Assembly (NCBI RefSeq): GCF_029233945.1
Contig: NZ_JARGOQ010000038.1
Location: 1 to 35,212, forward strand
Length of the DNA: 35,212 nt
Reading direction: 5' to 3'
Source: Sneathiella sp.
GTDB lineage: Bacteria > Pseudomonadota > Alphaproteobacteria > Sneathiellales > Sneathiellaceae
Shown here: positions 1 to 26,441 of the stretch, piece by piece
Layout of the letters: each line of letters starts with the position of its first letter
Numbering within the stretch: position 1 is the stretch's first letter
The notes under the pieces: model-generated
What the model was told of the DNA's origin: nothing
Databases searched by the model: none
What the model saw: only the letters and a program-made list of their open reading frames with translations
Position numbers and translations under genes: made by a program

Positions 1-392
1 CCGCCGCCCTGCATCTGGCGCATGAAGAAAATCCACACCCCGATCAGAAGCAGCATCGGGAACCATGACAGCAGCGTCGCCATCAACATGCTACCCTCTT
101 CCTTCGGGGCGGCATTAATGATAACGCCATGCTCGCTCAGCTTGGAGACAAGCGTGCTGTCTTCTGGCGCATAGGTCGTGAAGGACCGACCGTCATCAGT
201 AACGCCCTTGATATTCGGGCCCTGAATGGTGACATTTTTCACCCGGCCGTTTTCAACTTCATCGAGGAATGTCGAATACGGCATCGACAACCCGGCATTA
301 CGCGGAGAAGGATCATTGAAAATATTGAAAAGCGCCACAACGAGCAATGCGATGATCACCCAGAGCACTATGTTCTTGCCAAAAAGATTCAC
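1..392 (-). CDS. ftsH: ATP-dependent zinc metalloprotease FtsH, N-terminal part (cut by window edge)
   Basis: This is the first ~130 residues of the membrane-anchored AAA+ protease that degrades misfolded membrane proteins and regulators such as RpoH. The translation starts MNLFGKNIVLWVIIALLVVA, giving an N-terminal membrane helix. A periplasmic domain follows (with YSTFLDEVENGRV and VTIQGPNIKG), then a second helix near WFPMLLLIGVWIFFMRQMQ. The AAA and zinc-protease domains lie beyond the window edge. The start is a GTG at 392-390 with a purine-rich GGAAGG box about nine bases upstream. It follows tilS on the same strand, the usual alphaproteobacterial order. The family call is firm; the missing C-terminus cannot be judged. 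Confidence 0.9.
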   Translation of the reverse strand, partial: MNLFGKNIVLWVIIALLVVALFNIFNDPSPRNAGLSMPYSTFLDEVENGRVKNVTIQGPNIKGVTDDGRSFTTYAPEDSTLVSKLSEHGVIINAAPKEEGSMLMATLLSWFPMLLLIGVWIFFMRQMQGG

Positions 393-22861: not shown

Positions 22862-23845
22862 ATGACTAAATTGCCAGCGGCAACATACTCTCTCTCCCTG
22901 CTTGCCTCCCTCGCGGTTTCAATTCCCTTTGCCGGGATGATAGCAACGACTGCGCACGCGGAAACGAGCGGTTCAGCACGCCCGGCGGTTGAGGTCAATC
23001 TGAAGGCGCTTAAATATTCAGGCCCGCAACTCACATTGCCGACACGGATTATTGATGGCAGCTCTGTGATTGTGCTGACCCCGCCGTCCCTGCAGAAGAA
23101 AGCATCCTCAGAGCCGTCCCAGAAAATTGTTAAGCCACTCGTAAAACCGGCACTAACGCTTCCCGAAACGACTGTCGCGGCGGCAAAACCCGTCCCGGTT
23201 CCGCCTGTCAATCCAGAGAAACTGCCCGAACCGGCGGAAGAGACAAAGTTTGAGGATGTGGTAACCCCCGTCGTCAAAATGGATACCGCCCCGATCCCGA
23301 CAGCTGAAGTCGTTGAGGAGACCAAAGAAAACGTCGCGGATATGGCGGCAGAAAAGGTTGCCGAAACGGCTGACGCGGAGACTGCCGAGACGACACCAAC
23401 ATCAGTTGAGGCTGCGGCCGTGTCCAATTCCGACGCGACAGAAAAGCAGCCCGAGGCCGAGGCCGCGGAAGAAATCAGGCTCGCCGCCATTTCACCGGAT
23501 GCCGGGCCGACCGCTGCGACCGCCGCATCGAACGCAAATGACAACCTCACCCGTATCCTGTTCGCCGAAGGGATAGCCGATCTGCCGACAGAGGCGCAAA
23601 CCACCCTTCAGGCCATCGCCGATCAGGTGAAGGACGGCGACAGGCGAAATGTCCAGCTTCTTGCCTATGGCAGCGGAAACAGCGTCAGTGCTGCGCGCCG
23701 TCTCTCCCTCGGGCGGGCGCTTGCTGTCCGCTCGAAACTGATGGATATGGGGGTCGATAACAAACAGATTGAAGTACGGGCACTCGGGCAGCCGGAAGGC
23801 GACGAACCGTCAGACCGCGTTGATCTCCTCATGATTTCAAGGTAA
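22862..23845 (+). CDS. Periplasmic protein with degenerate OmpA-like C-terminal domain
   Basis: A 327-residue secreted protein. The signal peptide ends near TTAHA (about residue 37). A ~190-residue Pro/Glu/Ala-rich low-complexity region follows, with many PxP and EAAE-type segments, then an OmpA-like domain (about residues 230-327): RILFAEGIADLPTEAQTTLQAI, RRLSLGRALAVRSKLMDMGV, DRVDLLMIS. Where peptidoglycan-binding OmpA domains carry a TD Asp, this one reads LLAYGSGNS, while the LS..RA arginine is kept, so binding may be altered. It precedes the MotA-like gene by two bases. Function unknown. Confidence 0.8.
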   Translation: MTKLPAATYSLSLLASLAVSIPFAGMIATTAHAETSGSARPAVEVNLKALKYSGPQLTLPTRIIDGSSVIVLTPPSLQKKASSEPSQKIVKPLVKPALTLPETTVAAAKPVPVPPVNPEKLPEPAEETKFEDVVTPVVKMDTAPIPTAEVVEETKENVADMAAEKVAETADAETAETTPTSVEAAAVSNSDATEKQPEAEAAEEIRLAAISPDAGPTAATAASNANDNLTRILFAEGIADLPTEAQTTLQAIADQVKDGDRRNVQLLAYGSGNSVSAARRLSLGRALAVRSKLMDMGVDNKQIEVRALGQPEGDEPSDRVDLLMISR

Positions 23846-23847
23846 CC

Positions 23848-25047
23848 ATGTCAACAATTTCCAATGTCGAAACCCACAGCCTGGCCGGCACACCAAATAT
23901 CAAGAAGCCGCGGCGCTACCTGATCCGAATGACAATCTTTATCGGTGTTGCGATTGCAATCTCCGCCTTTCTCTACCCGCAACTCCAGATCGCTTTTTTC
24001 GCCAACCCGCTTTTAAATGGCCTTATCCTGCTGGTTTTGCTGTTCGGCGTTCTGTTTATCTTCCGCCAGGTGTACATGCTGACAGGGGAAATTAACTGGA
24101 CCCAGAGCTTGCGCCGCCTGGAATCATCGCAGCCCACGGTTCGGCCGCCACGGATGCTGGCTCCGCTCTATACGATCTTCAGCGATAGCAACGGGCCGGT
24201 CCGGTTAAGCGCCGTCACGATGAATACCTTGCTCGATAGTGTCAGCGCCCGGCTGGATGAAGGCCGGGATATTTCGCGCTATCTGATCAATGTGCTGGTA
24301 TTCCTCGGCCTGCTTGGCACTTTCTGGGGGTTGCTGGAGACGGTGGCCTCTGTTGGTGATGCCATTTCGACGCTTAATGTTGGCGGTGGCGGAGATTTCG
24401 TCGCGATTTTCGATGAGTTAAAGCTCGGCCTCGAAAAACCGCTTTCAGGGATGTCGATTGCCTTTTCCTCCTCCCTCTTCGGGCTGTCCGGATCACTGGT
24501 TCTGGGATTCCTCGATATGCAGGCGGGACAGGCCCAGAACCGCTTTTACGGCGATCTGGAAGAATGGCTGACCTCCATCACCCGCTTTACCAGCTCCGGT
24601 TCCACCGTCGTCTCCGACGGCGACCAGAGCGTTCCCATTTATGTGCAGGCCCTGCTCGAACAAACGGCGGAAAGCCTCAACAACCTTCAACGCACCCTCG
24701 CCCGGAATGAGGACAAGCGCGGATCGGCGGAGAATTCCCTGATCAATTTGAGCGAACGCCTTGCTGCCCTCACCGATCAGATGCGCACGGAACAAGACCT
24801 GCTCGTCAAGCTGGCTGAAGGACAAACAGAGCTTAAACCGCTCCTGGAACGCCTTGCCAAATCCGCCGAGAGTGCCGGGCTCGATCAGGCCAGCCGCAAT
24901 CACCTTCGCAATCTGGATGTGCATATGGTCCGCCTGATGGAAGAAAGCGCCGACGGCCGGGATCAGGTCGTTCAGGAAATTCGTAGCGATATCAAACTTC
25001 TGACCCGGACAATTGCCGCCATCGCGGAAGAAAGTCGCCGTGGTTGA
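23848..25047 (+). CDS. MotA/TolQ/ExbB-type proton channel subunit
   Basis: A 399-residue inner-membrane protein with four likely helices: residues ~25-47, ~52-75, ~145-170 and ~200-223. The third holds FLGLLGTFWGLLETV, and the fourth follows LEKPLSGMSIAFSSSLFGLSGSLVLG, matching the GTVWG and (A/S)(T/S)-rich channel helices of TolQ, ExbB and MotA. After residue ~235 comes a ~160-residue cytoplasmic helical tail (AESLNNLQRTLARNEDKR, RTEQDLLVKLAEGQTELK), which TolQ lacks but ZorA-type proteins have. It is clearly distinct from the tolQ in this window. It is placed between two OmpA-type genes and is probably one half of a 5:2 motor with the next gene product. Confidence 0.85.
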   Translation: MSTISNVETHSLAGTPNIKKPRRYLIRMTIFIGVAIAISAFLYPQLQIAFFANPLLNGLILLVLLFGVLFIFRQVYMLTGEINWTQSLRRLESSQPTVRPPRMLAPLYTIFSDSNGPVRLSAVTMNTLLDSVSARLDEGRDISRYLINVLVFLGLLGTFWGLLETVASVGDAISTLNVGGGGDFVAIFDELKLGLEKPLSGMSIAFSSSLFGLSGSLVLGFLDMQAGQAQNRFYGDLEEWLTSITRFTSSGSTVVSDGDQSVPIYVQALLEQTAESLNNLQRTLARNEDKRGSAENSLINLSERLAALTDQMRTEQDLLVKLAEGQTELKPLLERLAKSAESAGLDQASRNHLRNLDVHMVRLMEESADGRDQVVQEIRSDIKLLTRTIAAIAEESRRG

Positions 25048-25079
25048 GATCATGCCCGCCGTGAAAGACGGAGTAAGTT

Positions 25080-26441
25080 ATGGCTCGTAGACGCCGCGGA
25101 CAACGCGCCCCGTACGAGATTTGGCCGGGCTTCGTCGATGCGCTGACCACTCTCCTGCTGGTGATTATCTTCCTGCTGGTTGTCTTCGTGCTGGCGCAAT
25201 TTTTCTTGTCCCAAGCCCTGTCAGGCCGGGATGCCGCGCTCGAGAAGCTCAATCAGCAGGTTAATGAGCTTGCCGATCTTCTGGCGATTGAGCGTCGGAC
25301 AAGCGCAAATCTGGAAGGCCAGATCGCCCAGCTTAATATCGACATGACAAAGCTCGCGGAAGAACGCGACAGCGTTATCATCCAGCTCGACACCCTGACC
25401 AGCCGCGCGCTCTCCGCTGAGGAAGACCGGGATCGCCTGACGGTGCTCCTCCGTGAGGAGAAGGATAAAACCGCCGAGGTGGAGGATAAGCTGAACGTGA
25501 GTGAGGCCAGCCTGAAAGCTAATCTCGCCGAGCTTGAAAGCCTGAAACGCGACATTACCGCGCTCGAAGAAATCCGCAAAAACCTTGAGGAAGAGGTCGG
25601 TAAGCTCGCCGCCACGATTGAGGATAAAGATACCGAGATCGGCAATCTACGTGATCGCAGCAAGGAGCTGGAAGCCCGCATCGCCGATGAAGAGGAGCGG
25701 ACCAATCTCGCGCAGAAGGATATCGAGGAGCGCGAAATCCGCCTTGCCGAATTGCAAACGCTTTACTTGCAGACGCAGGACAAGCTGACTGAAGAAGAAG
25801 AGCTCTCCGCCGCGGCGCGGGCGCAGGTCGCGACCCTCAACGCCCAGATCAACGCACTCCGAAATGAGCTCGCCAAACTCAATCAGGCGCTGGAGGCAAG
25901 CGAGCTAAAGGATGTGGAGCAGCAGGCCCAGATCGCCGACCTCGGCAAACGGCTTAATCAGGCGCTCGCGGCCAAGGTGCAGGAATTGCAGCAATATCGC
26001 TCCGAGTTCTTTGGTAAGCTTCGGGAGGTGCTTAAAAACCGTCCCGGCATCAGCATTGTCGGCGACCGTTTCGTCTTCCAGTCAGAGGTTCTCTTCGATG
26101 CCGGACAGGCAGAGCTTGGGCCGGAAGGCAAACAAGATATGGCGAAATTTGCCGCAACCCTGCTGGAAATTGCGAAGGACATCCCAACGGACATAGACTG
26201 GATACTCCGTGTTGACGGCCATACGGATAGTCAGCCCATTAGCACGGCGCGCTTCCCCTCCAACTGGGAACTCTCCGTCGCCCGCGCTCTTTCCGTGACG
26301 AAATTCCTGATTAGTCAGGGCGTCCCTGCCAGGCGTCTCGCGCCGACCGGCTTTGGTGAGTTCCAGCCGATTGACAACCGCGATGACGAGATCGGCTATC
26401 TTCGCAACCGGCGGATCGAGCTGAAACTGACGGAGCGCTAA
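25080..26441 (+). CDS. MotB-like coiled-coil protein with OmpA peptidoglycan-binding domain
   Basis: A 453-residue protein with a basic N-terminus (ARRRRGQRAPYEIW) and one membrane helix, GFVDALTTLLLVIIFLLVV. Its Asp20 sits where MotB, TolR and ExbD keep the proton-carrying aspartate. Residues ~50-300 form a long, charged coiled coil, and the C-terminal ~130 residues an OmpA domain with LFDAGQAELGPEG, VDGHTDSQPI (Asp383), NWELSVARALSV (Arg402) and RLAPTGFGEFQPI, so peptidoglycan binding is intact. It lies 32 bases after its MotA-like partner. It differs from flagellar MotB in the very long coiled coil; no flagellar gene is nearby. Confidence 0.87.
   Translation: MARRRRGQRAPYEIWPGFVDALTTLLLVIIFLLVVFVLAQFFLSQALSGRDAALEKLNQQVNELADLLAIERRTSANLEGQIAQLNIDMTKLAEERDSVIIQLDTLTSRALSAEEDRDRLTVLLREEKDKTAEVEDKLNVSEASLKANLAELESLKRDITALEEIRKNLEEEVGKLAATIEDKDTEIGNLRDRSKELEARIADEEERTNLAQKDIEEREIRLAELQTLYLQTQDKLTEEEELSAAARAQVATLNAQINALRNELAKLNQALEASELKDVEQQAQIADLGKRLNQALAAKVQELQQYRSEFFGKLREVLKNRPGISIVGDRFVFQSEVLFDAGQAELGPEGKQDMAKFAATLLEIAKDIPTDIDWILRVDGHTDSQPISTARFPSNWELSVARALSVTKFLISQGVPARRLAPTGFGEFQPIDNRDDEIGYLRNRRIELKLTER

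Follow-up and report, generated by a model that had tools for sequence, protein, structure and literature searches.

A probable peptidoglycan-anchored 5:2-type motor, distinct from the flagellar stator and mainly alphaproteobacterial, encoded in a Sneathiella genome

The closest described relatives of the system discussed here are the flagellar stators MotAB/PomAB, the TolQR and ExbBD complexes, and ZorAB of the Zorya phage-defence system (PDB 8vvn, 8qyd). A torque-generating cytoplasmic domain between transmembrane (TM) helices 2 and 3 is the defining feature of flagellar MotA, and a survey from 2025 treated OmpA-type anchoring as a flagellar trait, the non-flagellar B subunits analysed there being without an OmpA domain (PMC12505986). 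For gliding, too, 5:2 motors are known or have been proposed, namely AglRQS and GldLM (PMC9389320). The locus considered in this study lies on a 35,212-nucleotide stretch of DNA from Sneathiella sp. (NZ_JARGOQ010000038.1, hereafter the window), where three open reading frames (ORFs) on the plus strand encode a secreted protein, orf1, a channel protein, A, and a coiled-coil protein with an OmpA domain, B. We consider it somewhat probable, at roughly 0.55, that A and B compose a peptidoglycan-anchored proton motor of the 5:2 type, which acts in the envelope at cell poles and division sites. The A-B pair is a family of its own, distinct from the described motors, non-flagellar and mainly alphaproteobacterial. 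Its motor core is well supported by residue conservation and predicted fold, and from these we infer a 5:2 assembly, proton flow and rotation.

A sequence-only reading of the same DNA had pointed to three adjacent genes with a "GTFWGLL" motif, a membrane Asp20, a long coil and a helical tail, all of which are indeed found at the positions given below.

22862-23845, plus strand: orf1, 327 amino acids; secreted periplasmic protein with an OmpA-like C-terminus
orf1 residues 1-33, plus strand: signal peptide of the AxA type (...TTAHA|E)
About 23558-23797 (orf1 residues 233-312), plus strand: OmpA-like domain of orf1 (Pfam OmpA, 5.5e-11)
23848-25047, plus strand: A subunit, 399 amino acids; channel protein of the MotA/TolQ/ExbB/ZorA type with four TM helices
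24304-24336, plus strand: TM3 pore motif of A, LGLLGTFWGLL (L153-L163), including T158 (61/61 in the alignment)
24463-24483, plus strand: TM4 pore motif of A, FSSSLFG (F206-G212), including S209 (61/61 in the alignment)
About 24637-25041 (A residues 264-398), plus strand: cytoplasmic helical tail of A, from the structural model
25080-26441, plus strand: B subunit, 453 amino acids; one TM helix, coiled coil and OmpA domain (NCBIfam PRK09039)
25137-25139, plus strand: Asp20 of B, putative proton carrier located where the TM helix begins (46/46 B sequences)
B residues about 43-318, plus strand: coiled coil of B, from the structural model
About 26091-26390 (B residues 338-437), plus strand: peptidoglycan-binding OmpA domain of B (Pfam OmpA, 6.7e-15)

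The structure of A predicted by AlphaFold2 (AF2) from a 61-sequence alignment has a mean predicted local distance difference test (pLDDT) score of 83.7 and consists of helices at residues 22-41, 54-90, 122-175 and 184-250, followed by tail helices at 264-342 and 347-398. T158 and S209/G212 are invariant in all 61 sequences, and the LGLLGTFWGL motif is kept. When the model was compared with solved structures by Foldseek, ZorA was the best match (E 1.3e-3, probability 1.0), followed by ExbB, TolQ and MotA, and the matches listed all came from the single superfamily of 5:2 motors; the corresponding VIA Z values were 11.9 for ExbB, 11.7 for TolQ, 11.1 for ZorA and 9.5-9.8 for MotA. When solved structures were searched with the sequence of A, no relative came up. 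The profile searches succeeded for B, which exceeded the PRK09039 cut-off (NF006543, 456.7 against 305 bits; NF006545 and NF006544 were exceeded too) and was recognised by the OmpA profile, but fell just short for A, whose 21.3 bits against Pfam MotA_ExbB lie under the cut-off of 22.9 and rise to 23.9 bits when its neighbours in the frame are included.

The B model (mean pLDDT 84) shows helices at residues 16-137, 142-275 and 286-318 and then an OmpA fold, with block-mean pLDDT of at least 89 over residues 331-450. All 46 aligned B sequences have W15, V19 and D20 in the single TM helix, and all 46 keep D383, N395, R402 and NRR 443-445 in the OmpA domain. Judged from its residues, the domain is an intact one with the complete peptidoglycan-binding set, which bears out the earlier proposal that B binds peptidoglycan; in Foldseek it matched the periplasmic domains of MotS, PomB and MotB, with a best E of 8.6e-12. 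Full-length B varies from about 300 to 720 amino acids across the family, mostly through the length of the coil, and a stalk of fixed length spanning the periplasm therefore seems unlikely. Because the modelled helices are interrupted at 138-141 and 276-285, either a straight stalk or a hairpin might be formed.

Relatives of A ranging from 96% down to 34% identity occur in genomes across the class, so A and B are not chance ORFs. The family was matched in 266 of 389 alphaproteobacterial genomes, representing 169 of 254 genera, and nearly all of them gave a single match, whereas a survey of the phylum (103 matching genomes out of 299) gave only six strong matches outside Alphaproteobacteria; weaker matches to long ORFs outside the class proved, where checked, to be DUF802 proteins with an OmpA partner of their own. 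At 193 of 203 loci A and B stand together on the same strand, and the median distance between them is 18 bp. Among 80 named loci, of which those of Sneathiella have A proteins 91-93% identical to that of the window, efp lies near 59, suhB near 63 and a gene related to MsbA near 28. The order efp-suhB-orf1-A-B also prevails at 20 additional loci, which come from other families of the class. The pair persists even in genomes smaller than 1 Mb.

A phylogeny of the channel core (78 rows, 194 columns) placed the Sneathiella-type A proteins in one group with a support of 93, outside the MotA clade (97, starred) and separate from the DUF802 (99, starred), ZorA-like (83) and TolQ/ExbB groups. This tree, together with the fold matches and the retention of A without FliG described below, upholds the earlier suggestion of a separate, non-flagellar motor of the 5:2 type. 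For the deeper order of the 5:2 motors, approximately unbiased tests did not reject trees in which the A family was forced together with MotA (p 0.45) or with TolQ/ExbB (p 0.68).

The four TM helices of A and the OmpA-type peptidoglycan-binding domain of B, whose fold recalls MotS and PomB, are shared with MotAB/PomAB, and family members are often annotated as MotA/MotB (PMC6570709); the pair might thus be taken for a flagellar stator or for an accessory stator paralogue of MotAB. This reading is scarcely credible, however, because the MotA clade excludes the A family and because the TM2 and TM3 helices of the A model are only about 31 residues apart, a loop that leaves A without the flagellar torque-generating domain. 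The Sneathiella genome also has a true MotAB pair elsewhere, and among the small alphaproteobacterial genomes that keep A, counted only when at least 93% complete, FliG is absent in 18 of 20. We rejected the stator on the tree, the missing torque loop and the retention without FliG. Besides the true pair, which is on contig 42, the genome carries a second MotA-type gene on contig 29, inside a flagellar operon and without an adjacent MotB.

The likeness to Zorya is of another kind. ZorAB, the best Foldseek match of A, has a cytoplasmic helical tail on its A subunit and a TM Asp and an OmpA domain on its B subunit, as the present pair has, and the PADLOC models ZorA1 (PDLC00597) and ZorB3 (PDLC00651) match A at 8e-11 and B at 2e-27, respectively. 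A phage-defence motor is nevertheless very improbable, since no effector gene (ZorC/D or ZorE) adjoins A-B and the neighbours are housekeeping genes, so that the ZorA-like layout without a Zorya effector noted from the sequence alone is what the locus actually shows. The near-universal, mostly single-copy occurrence with fixed synteny is unlike that of patchy defence islands; the tail of A is shorter than in ZorA, B has a long coiled coil, and the A family stands apart from ZorA in the tree. On neighbourhood and distribution the defence role was rejected. Within the class, the ZorA1 model matches 115 of 241 genomes, mostly at the A-B locus, and because the PADLOC Zorya models thus recognise a housekeeping family (window 23848-26441), counts of Zorya in Alphaproteobacteria may be inflated.

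A division and pole role of the motor can reasonably be inferred from work on Komagataeibacter hansenii, a non-flagellated bacterium in which a "motA" product of 348 amino acids with four TM helices and a "motB" product of 321 amino acids with an OmpA domain have been described (Jacek et al., PMC6570709, PMC6315621). Overexpression of motA/motB is reported to yield chained cells with septa, whose length is up to about double, together with looser cellulose (PMC6570709, PMC6315621), and green fluorescent protein (GFP) fusions of MotA and MotB take a polar position in short cells and a bipolar one in long cells (PMC6570709, PMC6315621); disruption of the genes is reported to be viable and to give denser cellulose (review PMC7347698). 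The family is present in 134 of 150 Acetobacteraceae genomes, the set having been assigned to Acetobacteraceae through kinship with Acidisoma in the A tree. Four Komagataeibacter-like genomes among them, from two genera with genomes of 3.3-3.6 Mb, encode an A of exactly 348 amino acids, in three cases with a B of 320-324 amino acids, in the same order efp-suhB-orf1-A-B; FliG is absent in three of the four. Their B proteins share 41-49% identity with those of Rhizobiaceae and Magnetospirillum over 98-100% of the length, but 24-30% with flagellar MotB, in keeping with the 46% identity to both Rhizobiaceae and Magnetospirillum proteins in the published BLAST table. From the sizes of 348 and 321 amino acids, the synteny and these identities, the published motA/motB are almost certainly orthologues and members of the A-B family. 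The K. hansenii proteins agree with the family members of Acetobacteraceae in size, topology and gene order, and differ from the Sneathiella proteins, in which the tail of A and the coil of B are longer. The pair was published as MotAB-like rather than as a distinct non-flagellar class, with no mention of orf1 in the accessible text.

What was already on record about the family comprises the phenotypes reported under motA/motB and the cataloguing of B as PRK09039, both of which had escaped the sequence-only reading, as had the occurrence of the pair in about two thirds of Alphaproteobacteria. The PRK09039 record ("peptidoglycan -binding protein") covers B alone and assigns it no motor, A partner or function, and a search of the literature under that name and of alphaproteobacterial screens gave nothing useful. 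Its members mostly go under the names MotA/MotB or "peptidoglycan-binding protein", and no study has dealt with them as a class.

The same experiments offer an argument for a motor of surface motility, comparable to AglRQS of Myxococcus. Colony spreading of non-flagellated K. hansenii reportedly increased about threefold on motA/motB overexpression (PMC6570709), and AglRQS and GldLM provide the precedent of 5:2 motors for gliding (PMC9389320). We regard such a function as quite unlikely, because spreading can result from long cells, the conserved neighbourhood contains no adhesin or gliding genes, and the family occurs in many lineages, including those with genomes below 1 Mb, that are not known to glide.

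If A and B do work as an envelope motor at poles and division sites, a B dimer would carry protons by means of Asp20 through an A pentamer in the inner membrane, would span the periplasm on its long coiled coil and would grip peptidoglycan with its OmpA domain, and the proton flow would turn or strain A against the cell wall. The tail of A might couple the motor to the cytoplasm and orf1 might couple it to an envelope partner, both as accessories. Side by side with Tol-Pal, its likely job would be to reshape the envelope mechanically at cell poles and sites of division. Several points weigh against this interpretation. The models of A and B are those of monomers; the Foldseek E-values of A are weak, 1.3e-3 being the best, and Z values near 12 fall in the range of helical bundles. 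The K. hansenii phenotypes stem mostly from overexpression, which can upset division non-specifically, the localisation was seen with plasmid-expressed GFP fusions, and the papers report increased colony spreading as well. The assignment of the K. hansenii genes to the family is a match by size, synteny and identity in Komagataeibacter-like genomes. Lastly, some lineages have a short tail or none and orf1 is absent at 24 of 106 loci, and neither would be needed for the core function.

The variation of the tail is illustrated by locus L183 (6540-7343), in a lineage outside the class, where a 268-codon A without cytoplasmic tail stands beside a normal B as a natural tail-less version; from such lineages with a short or missing tail, the tail appears to be accessory. 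Near efp in locus L186 (5093-7633) lies a divergent version of the system: an A-like frame of 573 codons comes after a B-like gene whose OmpA domain is degenerate.

In the third protein, orf1, a signal peptide of the AxA type is followed by a short V-x-V-N/D motif, then by a linker rich in Pro and Ala (about 200-320 residues) and, at the C-terminus, by an OmpA-like domain. R279, R285, R290, R319 and D321 are invariant in 32 of 32 aligned sequences, in which the peptidoglycan-ligand Asp of the OmpA motif is mostly replaced. Of the 106 loci whose upstream sequence is long enough, 82 have the gene next to A on the upstream side; it is missing in lineages such as L188-L191, and given its absence at the remaining 24 loci, it is a frequent and not an obligatory partner. 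The linker layout resembles that of TonB/TolA, but orf1 differs in that its signal peptide is predicted to be cleaved, which would leave it without an inner-membrane anchor. One could tentatively imagine that AB is a class-wide alphaproteobacterial motor for division and poles in which orf1 serves as a TonB-like moving part that transmits force from AB to the outer membrane, in parallel with and independently of Tol-Pal, a scheme that we consider doubtful.

The TonB-like layout of secreted orf1 also bears on another possibility, that A-B energises outer-membrane transport, as ExbBD does, or lipopolysaccharide (LPS) and outer-membrane biogenesis in connection with glycosyltransferases. TolQR and ExbBD share with A the channel fold (VIA Z 11-12) and the pore motif GLxGTxxG; TolQ/ExbB, however, have three TM helices, and TolR/ExbD are without OmpA domain or coil. 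B has an OmpA domain in place of an ExbD/TolR domain, no match to ExbD being found in the profile searches, the cleavable signal peptide deprives orf1 of an anchor, and no TolA/TonB gene lies beside the A-B pair. In the window, orf1 and A are separated by 2 bp and A and B by 32 bp, and two glycosyltransferase genes follow, the first abutting B without a gap and the pair overlapping by 4 bp; the motor genes also converge with a gene for an MsbA-related ABC transporter (TIGR02204; 28427-30235, minus strand), of the type found at 28 of the 80 named loci. The glycosyltransferase pair, from which a link with LPS or outer-membrane biogenesis had been surmised, adjoins the motor at 2 of these 80 loci, both of Sneathiella, whereas the neighbours across the class are efp and suhB. 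That link was rejected as one between Sneathiella-only neighbours, and a role of A-B as energiser appears improbable as a whole.

Upstream of the motor genes, the window contains efp, suhB, a dehydrogenase gene and ybjQ, and the Tol-Pal operon of the genome is located about 16 kb from the motor genes in the same window. Besides the A-B pair, the genome encodes its own MotAB, TolQ and ExbBD. In most Alphaproteobacteria, Tol-Pal, Ton and the flagellar stator appear to be joined by one more ion-driven motor of the envelope, a second one anchored to the cell wall in cells that already possess Tol-Pal. As non-flagellar B subunits with an OmpA domain, those of the A-B family and ZorB both bear on the evolution of stators.

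The DUF802 (PF05650) proteins of other Proteobacteria, which group near the A family in the tree (85, unstarred), likewise combine a long-tailed A with an OmpA-bearing B, a short PRK09040-like protein. They differ from A-B in having an A of about 700 amino acids and a B of about 220 amino acids without the long coil, and they form the clade of their own mentioned above. This pair (L172-L179) represents another uncharacterised 5:2-like system with a long cytoplasmic tail.

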